From Candidatus Peregrinibacteria bacterium (GTDB taxonomy: Bacteria > Patescibacteriota > Gracilibacteria > Peribacterales > Peribacteraceae), in the NCBI GenBank assembly GCA_030649955.1, contig JAUSFD010000004.1, forward strand, positions 1 through 64,000: 64,000 nucleotides of DNA, in the 5' to 3' direction. The position numbers and the translations under genes are program-made. The notes beneath the pieces were generated by a model. It had not been told where the DNA came from and did not search any database. It worked only from the letters and a program-made list of their open reading frames with translations. Shown here one piece after another: positions 8,512 through 59,242 of this stretch (within the stretch, counting starts at the first letter, position 1; every line of letters starts with the position of its first letter).

Positions 8512-8588
8512 TGGTACCCCGGACAGGGATCGAACCTGTGACCTGGAGCTTAGAAGGCTCCCGCTCTATCCAACTGAGCTACCGGGGC
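8512..8588 (-). tRNA. tRNA-Arg (anticodon UCU)
   Basis: The minus strand folds into a 77-nt cloverleaf. The acceptor stem is GCCCCGG paired with CCGGGGT, the D-arm contains AGCTCAGTTGG, and the anticodon stem GGAGC/GCTCC encloses loop CTTCTAA with anticodon TCT. The T-arm contains GGTTCGATCC. The CCA end is encoded. It reads AGA codons. Confidence 0.95.
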
Positions 8589-19892: not shown

Positions 19893-19986
19893 GGAGAGGT
19901 GGCTGAGTGGCCGAAAGCACCGCACTGCTAATGCGGTATACGGGGTAAATCCCGTATCGAGGGTTCGACTCCCTCCCTCTCCGCCA
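19893..19986 (+). tRNA. tRNA-Ser (anticodon GCU)
   Basis: A 94-nt class II tRNA. The acceptor is GGAGAGG/CCTCTCC, the anticodon stem CCGCA/TGCGG encloses loop CTGCTAA with anticodon GCT, the long variable arm is ACGGGGTAAATCCCGT, the T-arm is GGGTTCGACTCCC, and CCA is encoded. Its last 12 bases (CCCTCTCCGCCA) recur at 21892-21903, marking it as the attachment site of the element that follows. Confidence 0.96.
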
Positions 19987-20107
19987 CGTAAAAACGCTCG
20001 CAGTGCGCTGCTCGCGTTCACGTGGCGCAGCCACCACTTGCTTCCCTGTGCACGAGAAGCGTTTTTTGCGTGTCACGTGGCGAGCGGAGCGAGCTTTACG
20101 TGACATG

Positions 20108-20167
20108 ATGTTTTGGGCCTAATGGACCCACATACAGAGGGGAAGCTGCGGTTCTGGGGTGACCCAC
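20108..20167 (+). repeat. 60-bp left-end repeat, copy 1
   Basis: It matches 37042-37101 at 59 of 60 positions (G/T difference at 20137). It can form two small hairpins with the same TGGG/CCCA stem, one with a 9-nt loop (20114-20130) and one with a GTGA tetraloop (20155-20166). It may be a recombinase-binding site or a structured RNA. Confidence 0.85.
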
Positions 20168-20363
20168 TCCCTATTAATCTGTCGCATTTGTATGGAAATT
20201 GGAGAAGTACTCGGAGATCAGCGTCAACAAATGTATTCCCCCTTTTCCTTGTGGAATGGCCAGGATCAGGTCATTGGCTGAGCAAAAACTGGGGTGTAGT
20301 CAGTGTGTGTGGTGACACCCATTCGTGGGAGGTGTAACATGCTGCCCTTTTTCCGCTCGCCGC

Positions 20364-36872: not shown

Positions 36873-36962
36873 GGTGGGATGGCCGAGTGGTTGAAGGCGC
36901 CTGACTTGAAATCAGGTAGACCCTCACGGGTCTCGTGGGTTCGAATCCCACTCCCACCGCCA
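36873..36962 (+). tRNA. tRNA-Ser (anticodon UGA)
   Basis: A 90-nt class II tRNA: acceptor GGTGGGA/TCCCACC, anticodon stem CCTGA/TCAGG with loop CTTGAAA (anticodon TGA), a long variable arm, T-arm GGGTTCGAATCCC and encoded CCA. A TACTCT box lies just upstream. Its last 24 bases plus the next base recur 77 bp downstream, at 37016-37040. Confidence 0.96.
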
Positions 36963-37040
36963 TTTGACAAGCTCATGGCTAGAACTGACTACCTTGTGCT
37001 GAGCTCGTCGAAGCAGTTCGAATCCCACTCCCACCGCCAT
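36939..37040 (+). repeat. 25-bp direct repeat of the tRNA-Ser(UGA) 3' end
   Basis: Copies at 36939-36963 (within the tRNA and one base beyond) and 37016-37040 are identical. Between them lie 52 bases with a hairpin of the GACAAGCTCA...GAGCTCGTC type. The second copy abuts the 60-bp left repeat of the island, as an attachment site would. Confidence 0.85.
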
Positions 37041-37041
37041 C

Positions 37042-37101
37042 ATGTTTTGGGCCTAATGGACCCACATACATAGGGGAAGCTGCGGTTCTGGGGTGACCCA
37101 C
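37042..37101 (+). repeat. 60-bp left-end repeat, copy 2
   Basis: It is identical to 20108-20167 except at one base. It follows directly after the duplicated tRNA-Ser 3' end. Confidence 0.85.
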
Positions 37102-37175
37102 CCCCTCCGTAGGGGCGCAGACCAGAAATGAGTTGGTAAATATGTGAGAATGGGGTTCTAACATTAACGGCCTAT

Positions 37176-38146: not shown

Positions 38147-39472
38147 TCAGATTTTTTCCAAGTTGATCTTTCCATTTGCCAGACTGAGCTGGCTTTTCAG
38201 AGATTCGAGAATTTCTCTCTTCTCCTCTGCCGTCCCGTTCTTCAGGACGTACTTTGCGTATCCCCGCACATCCATTTTTGGAATCTTGATCGACTGATCC
38301 ATGCCGAGAACATCGGCGGTGAACTTGTTCATTCGCTCCACCTCCGATTCCAACTTTTTCCGCATGCCCGTTGTATCGAGGTCGATCTGATCGATTAGCT
38401 GGAGGAGCTGGCTGAGCAATTCGTCCTCCTGAACATACGGTTGTTTGCACGTCTGATCGAACCGCGAGCAGTGGTAGTAGACGTACTTCCGGATCGTGCC
38501 GTCCCGAAGTTGCTTGAACTTTTCTTCGGCAGTGACGCCGTTCCCGCAATTGCCGCATTTGAGCATCTTCGTGAAGGCAAACTCCTTCGATCCCCATCGC
38601 ATCTTCGGAGCGACTGCCAGCATCGACCGCACCTCCTCGAAGAGCTCCTTCGTGATGATCGGCTCATGGGTGCCCTTGTACCAGCTATCTACACCTTTCG
38701 GATATTCAAACATTCCGTAATAGAAGGGGTTATTGAGAATCCGATACACACCCGAGAGCGTGATTCGCTTGTCGCCTCTTGTTTTGAAATTCGCTTCTGT
38801 GTTCAACCATTTTAGGAGTGTCCGACCGCTCGCCCCTCGTTCTGCGACGAAGCGGAACAGCTGCTTGATCGTGGGCGCCCGAATTGGATCGATGACGATC
38901 TTGCCTTTGTTGCGATCCAGGCTCCTCTCGTTCAAATATCCAAGGGGAGCCACCCCGGGTCTGACGCCCAGCTCGCACTTGTTCTTGAGGCCGCGCTTCA
39001 CGTTGATTCCTCGATTGTCGTTCTCCAGTTTTGCCTGCGAGCAAAGGATCATGAGCAGAAATTTCTCGTTCGGGGAGTTCGTGAATTTCTGTCCCGTCGT
39101 TCGGATCTCCTTCAAAACACCTTGGTCCATCAGATCGACGAGAGAACCAAGGTCACCTGCATTCCTACTGAGTCTGTCCGGTGCCCACGTCACGATTCCT
39201 GTAAATGTGCCATTCCTGATATCTGCGATAAGTTGGCTGAAGACCGGACGTTGCCCGGAATCCTTGGCTGAATGGCTCTCGCGCCGGATCTCTGCAATGT
39301 CCAATCCGTCCCGCTTCGCGACCGCCAGCATCTCCTTGATTTGGGAGTCGATACTGAGTGCTTGCCGCTCGTCATCTTCGGAAGATTTTCTCGCGTAGAG
39401 GCAGTAACGGATCGGCTCAGTCTCGCTGCTTGTTTTCTGTTGTCGTTCTTCCAATGTTGCCGAAGGGTTCAT
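38147..39472 (-). CDS. Large serine recombinase (resolvase/invertase family)
   Basis: The 441-aa protein has a resolvase domain (about 20-165) with the catalytic Ser in YCLYARKSSEDD and the active-site stretch TWAPDRLSRNAGD. A recombinase domain follows (about 190-290, GVAPLGYLNE... and GVYRILNNPFYYG), then a zinc ribbon (CGNCGNG with a later Cys pair) and a C-terminal coiled coil. Such integrases join attP and attB without homology. ATG 39472 is the likely start; the frame before it is not protein-like. It is the probable integrase of element 2 and possibly mobilises element 1. Confidence 0.92.
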   Translation of the reverse strand: MNPSATLEERQQKTSSETEPIRYCLYARKSSEDDERQALSIDSQIKEMLAVAKRDGLDIAEIRRESHSAKDSGQRPVFSQLIADIRNGTFTGIVTWAPDRLSRNAGDLGSLVDLMDQGVLKEIRTTGQKFTNSPNEKFLLMILCSQAKLENDNRGINVKRGLKNKCELGVRPGVAPLGYLNERSLDRNKGKIVIDPIRAPTIKQLFRFVAERGASGRTLLKWLNTEANFKTRGDKRITLSGVYRILNNPFYYGMFEYPKGVDSWYKGTHEPIITKELFEEVRSMLAVAPKMRWGSKEFAFTKMLKCGNCGNGVTAEEKFKQLRDGTIRKYVYYHCSRFDQTCKQPYVQEDELLSQLLQLIDQIDLDTTGMRKKLESEVERMNKFTADVLGMDQSIKIPKMDVRGYAKYVLKNGTAEEKREILESLKSQLSLANGKINLEKI

Positions 39473-39575
39473 AGGGAAAGGGGTAAGAATGGACACATCA
39501 AGCAATGCCGCTACACACTCAAGAAGGCCAGGCAAAATCAGCGTAAACAGCCCAATTTCTCTGCAGTCAAACGCT

Positions 39576-41753
39576 TTAAAACATCGCCAATTGTCCTTCG
39601 GGAATAGCCTGTTTCATCCCACCCATTCTTTCCTGTCGAATTTCGAGCTGAAGTGTTCGATAGGTACGAAGGCGCTGGAAGTGCATCCCTTTGAGCATGG
39701 GCACATCGAAGTCCACATAGTCATAGACGTGCGCGTGCGACTTGCCCGGAGCAGTTCTTTGTACTCGTCCGATGTACTGCACGAGTTTCCCCTTCCAAGA
39801 GAATGGAAAACTGAAAAAGAGATGCGTTACCTCAGGCCAGTCGAATCCTTCACCGATGAGTTTGCCAGTCGCGATAAGAAGCTGAAAACGCTCCTGACGG
39901 ATACGCTGACTCAAACGCAGGCGATTGCCTTTGGTCATTGTTCCTTCCGCAACCGAACCGTGTATGCCCTTCGTCCGCCCCCGAATCATCTGGAAGAGCG
40001 TATGGCAGTGCTCCACACGCTCGGAGAGAACGAGACACTTTTGACCAGCCTCAAGCAGCGAAGCGACATCGGAGGCAATCTGGATATTACGTTCAGTATT
40101 CCGCATGATCCGTTCACCGATCTGGAAGAAGTCGAGTCCTTGTTCCTGTACTCGGAAAGTAGTGCCGCGTATGTGCACAGTGAGTGGCACTGTTGGCCCA
40201 TTTTCTAATGGACCAATTGTCTCGGCTGCTTTCATCTTCACGACAGGACCAACCGAATACACCATCAATCGTTCCAGTTTATCTTTCCGATACGGTGTCG
40301 CCGTGAGACCGAGGACATACGGAGCAGCAAACTGCCGCACGACAGAAAGAAAAGTAGTTGCCGGGATGTGGTGACACTCGTCGATCACGAGACAGCCGAA
40401 GGTATTCTTGATTTCCGTAAGATCTCTGCGCACGAGAGTTTGGTGGGATGCGATGGTGATCAGTCTCCCGATCTTCCATTTGCCATCACCGATGATGCCA
40501 ATATCTCCTTTCTTCAAAACGAAGTTTTTCTCAATGCACTTCTTCCATTGTTGGAGCAGTTCTCTCGTGTGCGCGATGACGAGTGCGGGTTGTCTGCGCT
40601 TGATGATGTACTGAAGAGCAACGACGGTCTTTCCAAATCCGGGCTGAGCCTCCAGAACGCAACGATCGTGTTCCAGGAGTTTCCTGAGCATGCGCTCCTG
40701 ATCTGGACGAAGTTCGATTGAGGAGGACATTCGCACTCCTTTGATCGTTTGCCGACGATCTTCGATGTGAACAGTGACACTATTTTCCTCAGCCCAGCTT
40801 TTGATCTCCTCAAGAAGTCCTGCCGGAATGACGATGCCATCCTCGTACTTTCGCAGAGCATAGATCCAACGCCTTGTTTGCCAGTTAGAGTAGCCGAGGC
40901 GCTCGTTCATCATGTGTTCAGGATTTCGGAAGACGAGCTTCTTTCGGAGGAATTTGAACAGGCTATCAGGCAATGCATGACTCGGGATGAAGATTTCACT
41001 TTCAAGGATGACTGTTGCAATGGGCTGAGTAATCGTCGCAACTCGATCAAAGACTTTCTCTGTCGTCGGGTCGCCTTCTTCTCCTTCGATGCGCGGAATT
41101 CCTGCTATCAATTGATCGACGATCTTTTCCGTAACCCGAGTGAGCGATGCAAGATATTGCCACTGATTAATTACAGTTTTTCCGTCGCTGTTGATAAAAC
41201 AGCTGTTGCCATCAAGAATATGGGACCCGCTCAGTGGCAGTGCGATGAGATTTCCGAGGCCTTTACCTGCGTGTTCGTCTTGGCTCGGAAAAAGTCGGTC
41301 GAATGTCGATTGTCTGGTGATCCCTGCCTCCGTGAGCAGGTATTTACCCCATTGCCGTGCCTTCCATGCAGGAAGTGCTGTATCAAAGAAGAACCAGACG
41401 TGACCTCCATTTCCCGATTTCGACCGCTCAAGTGCGAATGGAATGCCATGCCTTGCGACGACGCGAGCCAGAAGATTTACTTCAGCGAGCCACTGATCTC
41501 CATCAAAATCCACGACAAGAAAATGCGTCGTATTATCTTTCTGCAACGGATAAATGCCAATGAGAGCATCCCCCCGAAGATGCGATTGAATGACTTCATC
41601 GGTGAGTGGAGCATATTCACCGGTGTGAAATTTGGCCGGTGCGTAACCAAATTTCCCAGTTTTGTTACTCGACCAAAATCGCGCGAAAACATCATCTCGT
41701 CCCCGGAAAAGAGATCGGAACAGCCGCAGTTGATCGCTCAAAACGTCAGCCAT
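39576..41753 (-). CDS. Fused archaeo-eukaryotic primase and SF2 helicase (TOTE-conflict-like)
   Basis: The 725-aa protein joins two enzymes. Residues of about 8-215 form an archaeo-eukaryotic primase-like domain with FRSLFRGRDDVFARFW, the metal motif DFDGD (82-86), SGNGGH (113-118) and GNLIALPLSG, matching the primase of TOTE conflict systems. Residues of about 340-700 form an SF2 helicase: Walker A QPGFGKT (370-376), DECH (458-461), TATP (484-487) and QYIGRVQR near 660. TOTE enzymes are thought to act against invading nucleic acids; that is inferred from the family. An extended -10 (TGG-TAGAAT) ends 8 nt before the ATG and faces the antitoxin promoter. Confidence 0.83.
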   Translation of the reverse strand: MADVLSDQLRLFRSLFRGRDDVFARFWSSNKTGKFGYAPAKFHTGEYAPLTDEVIQSHLRGDALIGIYPLQKDNTTHFLVVDFDGDQWLAEVNLLARVVARHGIPFALERSKSGNGGHVWFFFDTALPAWKARQWGKYLLTEAGITRQSTFDRLFPSQDEHAGKGLGNLIALPLSGSHILDGNSCFINSDGKTVINQWQYLASLTRVTEKIVDQLIAGIPRIEGEEGDPTTEKVFDRVATITQPIATVILESEIFIPSHALPDSLFKFLRKKLVFRNPEHMMNERLGYSNWQTRRWIYALRKYEDGIVIPAGLLEEIKSWAEENSVTVHIEDRRQTIKGVRMSSSIELRPDQERMLRKLLEHDRCVLEAQPGFGKTVVALQYIIKRRQPALVIAHTRELLQQWKKCIEKNFVLKKGDIGIIGDGKWKIGRLITIASHQTLVRRDLTEIKNTFGCLVIDECHHIPATTFLSVVRQFAAPYVLGLTATPYRKDKLERLMVYSVGPVVKMKAAETIGPLENGPTVPLTVHIRGTTFRVQEQGLDFFQIGERIMRNTERNIQIASDVASLLEAGQKCLVLSERVEHCHTLFQMIRGRTKGIHGSVAEGTMTKGNRLRLSQRIRQERFQLLIATGKLIGEGFDWPEVTHLFFSFPFSWKGKLVQYIGRVQRTAPGKSHAHVYDYVDFDVPMLKGMHFQRLRTYRTLQLEIRQERMGGMKQAIPEGQLAMF

Positions 41754-41788
41754 GGCTTGAAATTCTACCAGATTTACAACGATTTGTG

Positions 41789-41797
41789 TGCTATAAT
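41789..41797 (+). promoter_or_regulatory. Extended -10 promoter of the antitoxin-like gene
   Basis: TGC-TATAAT is a full-consensus extended -10. The ATG at 41804 follows by 6 nt, giving a leaderless mRNA. A divergent extended -10 for the primase-helicase lies at 41762-41770. Confidence 0.7.
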
Positions 41798-41803
41798 AGG
41801 CTC

Positions 41804-41989
41804 ATGACGTTCGGTACAGGCACCCGACTCCGGCAAATCTCCCCTGCACTCAGAAATGAGGATGCTCGTCATCAGATGATTCTGCGATGCGTCGAGAATA
41901 ATAGTGTCATTGAAGGACTCCCCCGATTCACAAAAAAGATGAAGCAGGAGTGCTTACAAGATCTTAAGGAGATCGCTTCGAAGCATTAA
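41804..41989 (+). CDS. Putative FicA/VbhA-like antitoxin (61 aa)
   Basis: The small protein has a central helix reading CVENNSVIEGLPRFTKKM, close to the inhibitory segment of class I Fic antitoxins such as VbhA (SQRLEGLEP) and YhfG (SRRLEGVEM). There, S/T-xxx-E-G inserts a Glu into the Fic ATP site. Here Asn occupies the S/T position. It overlaps the 3' end of the fic gene by 26 bp in convergent orientation, whereas known pairs are in one operon with the antitoxin first. An extended -10 promoter gives a leaderless mRNA. The call is inferred from motif and neighbour. Confidence 0.62.
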   Translation: MTFGTGTRLRQISPALRNEDARHQMILRCVENNSVIEGLPRFTKKMKQECLQDLKEIASKH

Positions 41990-42596
41990 GAGCCGATGTA
42001 ATCATTGAAGCCATTGGATCGTAGTTCTGGAGTATCGCTGCTTTTGCGGCTTCGATATAGCGATCTCGACCGGCATCCGATGCATCGTAGATGAGAGCGA
42101 GGCGACCTGTCTGCACGGCCAGCAAATCCGTGGCAAGTTTGATAGTGCGAGCATTGCCCTCACGAAACGGGTGTATGGCGAGAAATTCTCCTTGAATGTG
42201 CCCGACCGCCTTGCAGAAAAGATCGTCCGCAACAAGTGAAGTTGCCGGATATTTTGAAAGCACATCTCGTTCAAATGCGCTCATTGCTTCGTCGAGATAA
42301 TCTGGGGGTGGCCAAGCAGTTCCTTCTTTGCTGATCGATACGGTTCTCCATCGACCAGCCCACCCATACAGATCGCTGAAAATGCGGCCATGAACATACT
42401 GAATCAATTCGGATGAGATGGGAGTGTCTGATCGCATCTCATCGAGAAGCAATTCGTATGCTCTGGCCAAAGACTTTTCTTCTTCGACGAATAGGTCATG
42501 CAAATCAACAATGTCCTTCTTGTTCTTCAGTACTTTCTGCTCCAAATCCATGTACTCGTTCTCACTGCCGCCGACCGAATATCGAGATGCTGTCAT
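41964..42596 (-). CDS. fic: Fic-family AMP-transferase (class I type)
   Basis: The 210-aa protein has the Fic core with the complete motif HPFREGNART (142-151), which binds ATP phosphates and deprotonates the target hydroxyl. Its N-terminus (SRYSVGGSENEYMDLEQKVL...NKKDI) matches the class I/cell-filamentation Fic group. No S/T-xxx-E-G inhibitory helix is seen at either end, so a separate antitoxin is expected; the convergent 61-aa gene fits. Fic enzymes usually AMPylate proteins such as gyrase. TATAGT ends 7 nt before the ATG (leaderless). Confidence 0.92.
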   Translation of the reverse strand: MTASRYSVGGSENEYMDLEQKVLKNKKDIVDLHDLFVEEEKSLARAYELLLDEMRSDTPISSELIQYVHGRIFSDLYGWAGRWRTVSISKEGTAWPPPDYLDEAMSAFERDVLSKYPATSLVADDLFCKAVGHIQGEFLAIHPFREGNARTIKLATDLLAVQTGRLALIYDASDAGRDRYIEAAKAAILQNYDPMASMITSALNASKRSP

Positions 42597-59024: not shown

Positions 59025-59101
59025 CGGGACGTAGCTCAGTTGGCTAGAGCGCGTGGTTCGGGACCACGAGGTCGCTGGTTCAAGTCCAGTCGTCCCGACC
59101 A
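59025..59101 (+). tRNA. tRNA-Pro (anticodon CGG)
   Basis: A 77-nt cloverleaf: acceptor CGGGACG/CGTCCCG, D-arm GTAGCTCAGTTGGCTAGAGC, anticodon stem CGTGG/CCACG with loop TTCGGGA (anticodon CGG), T-arm TGGTTCAAGTCCAG and encoded CCA. It reads CCG codons. Copies of its 5' and 3' ends lie 135 bp upstream and 141 bp downstream. Confidence 0.96.
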
Positions 59102-59146
59102 GAGGAATAGCATCCAAAGCAACTGGAAGATCGATTGTCTCCGAGA

Positions 59147-59188
59147 GACCCCGCGTAGCTCTGTGGAGTGGGGTCGTCCCCTTCTTTT
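59147..59188 (+). terminator. Terminator downstream of tRNA-Pro
   Basis: GACCCC (59147-59152) pairs with GGGGTC (59170-59175), followed within a few bases by a T-rich run (59181-59188). Confidence 0.6.
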
Positions 59189-59229
59189 TGAGTATCGTGA
59201 AAACCTCTGCGAGGCAGAGGCGAAGAGGG

Positions 59230-59242
59230 GTCGTCCCGACCA
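59230..59242 (+). repeat. Displaced 3' fragment of tRNA-Pro
   Basis: GTCGTCCCGACCA equals the last 13 bases of the tRNA-Pro (59089-59101). A shorter version, GGGGTCGTCCC, lies at 59170-59180. The layout resembles a small att-site duplication like that at tRNA-Ser. Confidence 0.6.

Follow-up and report, generated by a model that had tools for sequence, protein, structure and literature searches.

The exact 25-nt repeat behind a tRNA-Ser(UGA) gene is probably the footprint of a small mobile element, and the 53-nt unit S that it encloses probably derives, by internal deletion and with loss of autonomy, from a family in which full-length members carry a GIY-YIG nuclease gene. A 77-bp insertion behind this tRNA (the 53-bp S plus a 24-bp tail) is very likely, and the assignment of S to the tRNA-3′-end GIY-YIG family as an ORF-less derivative is moderately supported. 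The window, that is, the whole 64-kb stretch of DNA that was analysed, is part of a 1.67-Mb draft genome (G000), and the 353 genomes of the class that we searched included no other member of its genus (g1).

The tRNA-Ser(UGA) locus and the order of insertion

The features of the window on which the argument rests are as follows.
36873–36962, plus strand: tRNA-Ser(UGA) gene, the presumed insertion target (ARAGORN; RF00005, 65.3 bits)
36939–36963, plus strand: repeat copy 1, 24 nt of the tRNA 3′ end and a shared T, within the intact tRNA gene
36963–37015, plus strand: unit S, 53 nt, starting TTTGACAAGCTCATGGC at CCA+1 and ending CTGAGCTCGTCGAAGCA
37016–37040, plus strand: repeat copy 2, in register with E (from the repeat match and register)
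37040–37106, plus strand: sequence E, ~66 bp (63/66 identity to locus L008 of genome G021)
19893–20172, plus strand: tRNA-Ser(GCT) (19893–19986), palindromic spacer from CCA+1 (19987–20103) and a copy of E (20104–20172)
59025–59242, plus strand: tRNA-Pro(CGG) (59025–59101) with an exact 13-nt tail copy (59230–59242), the second case in the window
8512–8588, minus strand: tRNA-Arg(TCT) with the palindromic repeat CGTAAAATTGCG..GCAAATTTTACG from CCA+1

The original prediction described an exact second copy of the tRNA 3′ end 77 bp downstream, and repeat comparison bears this out: the two 25-nt copies (36939–36963 and 37016–37040) are identical and start 77 bp apart. The tRNA-derived part is 24 nt, up to the CCA, and the T is common to both copies as the 25th base because S and E each start with T. 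The match is far beyond chance (the non-cognate control rate for tails of at least 12 nt is 21/9176), and no third copy of the 25-mer with up to five mismatches is found on either strand of the 64-kb window. An Rfam scan of the locus returned, besides the tRNA, sub-threshold matches only (sX4 at 32.4 bits, where the gathering score is 70).

Sequence E provides the register from which the order of events can be read. It is present in three copies in G000 (window 37040–37106, window 20104–20172 and G000:C30:27247–27310), in G021 and G206 and, as a diverged version, in G005 (L022); the remaining copies are L008, L022, L390 and L392, and BLAST placed E in its own genome and two others among the 353. 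All seven copies examined have a tRNA-Ser 0–192 bp upstream in the same orientation, E being seen only behind tRNA-Ser of several anticodons in a few genomes. As an exact pattern E had no match in viral contigs. A search of phage records gave 39 matches; the 20 listed each cover 15% of the query and are annotated as tRNA-Ser. In G021, E adjoins the tRNA-Ser CCA end directly, and the junction of copy 2 with E in the window is the same, CCGCCA followed by T(C/G)ATGTTTTGGGCC. Removal of 77 bp from the window yields CCGCCA/TCATGTTTTGGGCC, and the natural G021 junction is CCGCCA/TGATGTTTTGGGCC. Since copy 2 is in register with E, and E lies directly at the CCA in G021, copy 2 is probably the displaced original tRNA 3′ end and copy 1 the newly supplied tail, and since removal of the 77 bp restores the tRNA–E junction, S and a fresh tail appear to have entered between the tRNA and E. 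At the other two E copies of G000, a different palindromic spacer of 106–117 bp separates E from the tRNA, and no clear tail copy is present there (longest match, 7 nt).

This register, together with stacked tail copies at other tRNAs, supports the earlier proposal of successive insertions at one tRNA, with the sequence of events probably reversed: the tRNA-proximal 77-bp unit, which had been taken for the first arrival, would be the later one. Copy 2 was also said to abut the left end of a larger element. It does adjoin E, but there is no support for E as the end of a recombinase island; the sequence 3′ of E is unrelated from locus to locus, E copies at other loci have no downstream reading frames in common, and this candidate was dropped on account of the variation downstream of E among tRNA-Ser loci. 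On the minus strand at 38147–42596, genes for a 462-aa large serine recombinase, a 725-aa TOTE-type primase-helicase (PF22548) and a protein with a Fic domain stand in a row and look like the core of an integrated element, the ends of which were not found.

Tail copies and nuclease genes behind tRNA and tmRNA genes

Duplicated tails recur at tRNA genes of many isotypes. We surveyed five genomes (G000, G030, G013, G199 and G200) for copies of at least 12 nt, with at most one mismatch, of a gene's own tail within 600 bp downstream, using 221 of 228 tRNA genes (the seven with <150 nt downstream were left out), and found such copies behind 24 of the 221 (6 in G000, 2 in G030, 9 in G013, 4 in G200 and 3 in G199). 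Controls returned 21 of 9176 non-cognate downstream regions (tRNAs for other amino acids) and 0 of 221 upstream regions of 300 nt. Two G030 inserts (L127 and L128) look like partial tRNA copies of 52–53 nt, and the G200 insert L312 looks like a plain tandem duplication in which the tail and the following bases repeat, so that about 21 of the 24 fit insertion and the orphan tails of these genomes are not all scars of elements. With these three duplications left aside, the duplicated tails span 12–34 nt, with a fixed boundary at the CCA and a variable one that lies mostly in the T-arm or acceptor strand. Insert length is 53–130 bp in 16 of the 24 cases, and two tail copies of 16 and 12 nt are stacked at the tRNA-Ser(UGA) of G198. 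In the window, the tail copy of tRNA-Pro(CGG) is followed by TCCGTCTTCGCGG, a family left-arm motif, and the insert itself has no left arm at CCA+1. The same arm is absent from CCA+1 in the tail-bounded inserts L061, L063, L152, L160 and L174, several of which retain the right-hand motif.

Comparison of G199 and G200, which belong to one genus, reveals filled and empty sites at the CCA boundary. Behind tRNA-Arg(TCT), a 92-nt unit with an exact tail copy of 15 nt is present in G199 and absent from G200; the G199 sequence past the tail resembles, by eye, the G200 sequence past the CCA. The tRNA-Cys site is filled in G200, with ~135 extra bases after the CCA, and empty in G199, and the flank is 93.7% identical over 837 bp to the G199 sequence starting at +2. 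tRNA-Leu(TAA) provides a third offset pair. The tRNA-Cys and tRNA-Leu(TAA) pairs, two of the three, have no tail copy above the threshold. These differences between G199 and G200 are recent insertions at the CCA boundary.

Palindromic sequences of a few recurrent types directly follow many of the 46 tRNA genes of G000, as judged by eye; structure energy at CCA+1 is a weak family marker (31 of 213, versus 15–17 of 213 in downstream windows). Contigs C22, C29, C70 and C99 of G199, C7 of G012 and C4 of G000 end 3 to ~115 bases past a tRNA 3′ end, as if repeats behind tRNAs broke the assembly there. In G200 (L309), a second tRNA-Thr-like sequence, located ~780 bp downstream of tRNA-Thr(TGT), has a palindromic family-type insert in its anticodon loop (by eye, ACTTG/CCTGTCCGGCGAAG..GACGGA/TAATGCG).

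A GIY-YIG reading frame with a stop codon is present in 6 of the 24 tail-bounded inserts, and in four genomes 11 such frames lie within 900 bp downstream of 146 tRNA genes, all in the direction of the tRNA. PF01541 matches three of the proteins with E values of 9e-17, 4.1e-15 and 1.3e-14; nine aligned sequences have Y5, Y16, G18, R26 and E62 invariant, and we take the conserved tyrosines, arginine and glutamate to be catalytic. The nearest solved sequences are the UPF0213 proteins 1zg2 and 1ywl, Pfam names the proteins tested by domain only, and three of them had no NCBIfam match that passed the cut-offs. Among the 31 PF01541 matches in G000, G030, G013 and G012, 12 begin within 300 bp downstream of a same-strand tRNA (5/9, 1/5, 6/8 and 0/9, respectively; distances worked out by reading the output positions). 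None of the nine G012 matches lies directly behind an RF00005 tRNA, and one lies ~250 bp behind another tRNA-like end. Four of the 31 fall within frames of 785–881 residues, the size of UvrC. Three GIY-YIG matches lie 22–134 bp upstream of a same-strand tRNA (G000:C25:123485–123688, G013:C2:127438–127644 and G030:C1:671271–671465), the last with a score below the family cut-off.

Full-length and short units are linked by their ends. L089 and L148, small units of 64 nt and a tail, have both ends in common with the full-length L077, which is how an internal deletion would look. At the G013 tRNA-Cys (L168), an ORF-less unit lies behind a full-length copy and its tail and has the same left arm of 54 nt as that copy.

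The nuclease genes extend well beyond these genomes. We scanned named genomes with an alignment of three of the proteins and analysed the best 80 of 167 confirmed loci, which come from Peregrinibacteria/Peribacteria, many Bradyrhizobium and other Alphaproteobacteria, Verrucomicrobia, Ignavibacteria, Planctomycetota and others. With a distance limit of 400 bp, 59 of these best 80 loci have a tRNA 81–360 bp upstream on the same strand, and no locus has one on the opposite strand within 400 bp. An Rfam scan of 20 of the 21 loci without a tRNA (L284 was left out) placed a same-strand tmRNA 99–436 bp upstream of 10 more (distances by reading). The nuclease gene is thus behind a tRNA or tmRNA at 69 of the best 80 loci, a proportion valid for this subfamily and not for all GIY-YIG proteins, since the query was built from tRNA-adjacent copies. 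At 53 of the 59 loci with a tRNA, CTTCG is found no more than 14 bases from the CCA end, against a background of 266/11182 16-nt windows drawn from five Peribacteria-type genomes only. A tail copy of at least 12 nt is found within 250 bp past the stop codon in 7 of the 59 (3/2574 mismatched pairs); most of these loci have none, as would be expected if displaced tails were to decay.

Two post-CCA motifs were followed through the 353 genomes with patterns that detect tRNA-like ends. T-arm..CCA followed by TCCGNCTTCG occurs 80 times in 35 genomes, and T-arm..CCA followed by TTYGACWMG 169 times in 57 genomes (totals summed from tables; 30 and 25, respectively, confirmed as tRNA genes); reversed-pattern controls gave 0 for each. 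The 30 tRNA genes of the TCCGNCTTCG type that were checked include six with tail copies and six with a GIY-YIG frame; among the 25 checked of the TTYGAC type, S aside, none has a tail copy and one has a GIY-YIG frame.

Assignment of unit S and competing explanations

Unit S starts at 36963, the first base after the CCA, and terminates in an exact 24-nt copy of the local tRNA tail, two defining features of the family. It begins with TTYGACWMG, as do 168 other tRNA-adjacent units, and contains CTCATGGC, which in L077 sits in frame at the start of the nuclease gene. Its end, CTGAGCTCGTCGAAG, resembles CTGAGCTTGTCGAAG in L424 and L442, and CGAAG falls within the last 16 nt of 10 of the 24 inserts, S included (background, 242/11182 windows). 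S aligns with the ends of L077, L089 and L148 at shuffle p values of 0.006–0.02 in three of eight comparisons, a modest similarity given p >0.03 in the other five, and L425 combines S-type arms with a GIY-YIG frame (PF01541, E 1.7e-13). The spacer had been described as a hairpin. An inverted repeat is indeed present, 11 of 14 terminal bases matching the reverse complement of the other end, but the DNA hairpin is no more stable than dinucleotide shuffles (z = +0.35; equalled or bettered by 127 of 200 shuffles). Inverted repeats of at least 11/14 occur in 4 of the 24 inserts, S among them, versus 7 of 552 mismatched pairs; across all 24, the ends average 7.29 of 14 against 6.54 in mismatched pairs, only slightly better. 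At 53 nt, S has no nuclease frame and is not among the six GIY-YIG-bearing inserts, and is thus filed as a probable ORF-less derivative and not as a full member. A full-length copy with the exact left arm of S was not found among the 353 genomes: TTYGACAAGCTCATGG occurs in six, and only the window's occurrence lies at a recognised tRNA.

On the reading that we favour, a 77-bp unit would have entered at the 3′ end of tRNA-Ser(UGA) and separated the tRNA from the older E, leaving the tRNA intact and displacing its old tail downstream. Full-length members of the family, ~300–490 bp with tail, have one ~80-aa GIY-YIG gene in tRNA orientation between palindromic ends. Tails match the local tRNA, whatever its isotype, which suggests that the duplication is made on the spot and not carried from a donor tRNA; a tail of this kind would result from staggered cutting with fill-in or from some similar copying step. 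The nuclease may recognise the T-arm/acceptor region and make a staggered cut between the T-arm and the CCA end, after which insertion of the element and filling in of the stagger would duplicate the tail. A T-arm and acceptor end are common to tRNA and tmRNA, so that a nuclease reading this region would explain the choice of site. The element may be transcribed from the tRNA promoter, and S would have been moved in trans by a full-length copy.

Duplication of a tRNA tail is the classic mark of integrase elements, and a tyrosine-integrase element might have integrated here, restored the tRNA through the tail in its attP and then lost nearly everything but the 52 bp between attL and attR. A recombinase gene does lie 1 kb downstream (38147–39535), but its product is a large serine recombinase (PF00239, PF07508 and PF13408), a class whose att sites have only a short core in common. 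No integrase gene stands between the repeats, the 25-nt copies being 52 bp apart; no third tail copy is found within the window, and likewise no matching right end for a serine-recombinase island with its attL here. Many isotypes are hit per genome and 16 of the 24 inserts are of 53–130 bp, which would need many integrases and repeated deletion to a similar size, and none of the six coding inserts, which carry GIY-YIG, is long enough for an integrase. We regard this history as quite unlikely. The original prediction of a tiny island remnant is weakened by the same recurrence of small inserts with tail copies at many isotypes, by end motifs that several of them share and by full-length relatives that have a GIY-YIG nuclease and no integrase; an independent small element is the likelier reading.

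It is unlikely, too, that S is a REP- or MITE-like palindrome moved in trans by a Y1 RAYT/IS200-type or Cas1-like enzyme, with the GIY-YIG genes as independent passengers at a hotspot, although several observations point that way. S-like TTCGACAAGCTCA sequences are present elsewhere in the genome, away from tRNA ends; of the six matches to TTYGACAAGCTCA in the window's own genome, five lie away from tRNA ends, including one ~110 bp behind tRNA-Ile. A nuclease frame is missing from many of the palindromic units that follow tRNAs, and casposons are an instance of a TIR-bounded element with another integrase that inserts at tRNA 3′ ends with target duplication (PMC4046053). Similar ends with and without the nuclease gene (L077 versus L089 and L148, the L168 pair and L425) speak against independent passengers, as does a nuclease strictly co-oriented with and adjacent to the tRNA or tmRNA. 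Plain tandem duplication of the tRNA end and its flank, or slippage there, followed by divergence, has a clear example in L312 of G200; at the tRNA-Ser(UGA) locus, however, the sequences behind copy 1 and copy 2 (S and E, respectively) are unrelated, and E directly on a CCA end is an independent natural state in G021, which makes this origin highly improbable.

Significance and relation to known systems

Orphan tails of tRNA genes are routinely put down to phages or islands that integrated there. If gene-sized nuclease elements make them too, such readings need revision, and these elements might account for many palindromic repeats and orphan tails behind tRNAs in phyla that range from Peregrinibacteria to Alphaproteobacteria and Verrucomicrobia. 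There would then be a role, and a target open to testing, for a set of small GIY-YIG proteins, which would offer a simple system for how a nuclease of ~80 residues finds so many tRNA genes and bearing on why the host tolerates nuclease elements at its tRNA ends. The gene-sized elements behind tRNA and tmRNA genes in several phyla apparently constitute an undescribed family. We suggest tentatively that they may represent a distinct and broad class of mobile element, defined by a lone GIY-YIG mobility enzyme, the 3′ part of any tRNA or tmRNA as target, precise insertion at the CCA with a duplicated tRNA tail, and palindromic ORF-less derivatives that stack behind tRNAs.

Among the titles and abstracts listed by the literature searches (subscription papers and preprints lay outside their scope), no description of GIY-YIG elements at tRNA or tmRNA ends was found; a search of such limited scope is weak evidence of novelty. 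It also covered parts of PMC12455944, PMC9897764 and PMC5356059. A survey of the GIY-YIG superfamily notes, in the sections seen, GIY-YIG genes in mobile elements, and those sections, searched for tRNA, COG2827, YhbQ and mobile, do not hold the tRNA-end arrangement (PMC1564403). GIY-YIG insertions are also catalogued in rRNA genes of CPR bacteria (PMC11270868); these resemble the present elements as GIY-YIG genes in stable-RNA genes of such bacteria and differ in lying within rRNA genes, tRNA being absent from the main text of that paper.

The elements described here have in common with tyrosine-integrase islands the tail duplication, the restored tRNA and the accretion of successive insertions, but have no integrase, are far smaller and hit many isotypes per genome. 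REP and MITE repeats of the RAYT and IS200/IS605 type are short, palindromic, numerous and non-autonomous, as are the units here, which differ in starting at CCA+1, in the tail duplication and in the GIY-YIG gene of full-length copies. Casposons, Cas1-encoding elements of archaea and bacteria, are kilobases long. The elements here measure ~77–490 bp, the only gene seen in them is GIY-YIG and the tail duplications are 12–34 nt. Casposons are nonetheless the nearest in logic: they have TIRs, duplicate their target site and insert at the 3′ ends of different tRNA genes, leaving the tRNA unaltered (PMC4046053). They encode Cas1 and PolB, and one carries a GIY-YIG gene (PMC4046053); S, at 53 nt, has no room for a Cas1 gene between its inverted ends. 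A further parallel is found among free-standing GIY-YIG homing genes, in which a selfish nuclease gene likewise lies at a conserved gene, with the host gene functional and a displaced tail downstream. Mobile ORFs duplicate gene 3′ ends in fungal mitochondria, as in the case of atp6 and ORF360 of Allomyces. In contrast to homing genes, the present elements occupy the 3′ ends of tRNA and tmRNA genes of many isotypes, have tails that match the local tRNA and not a donor, and combine palindromic ends with ORF-less derivatives.
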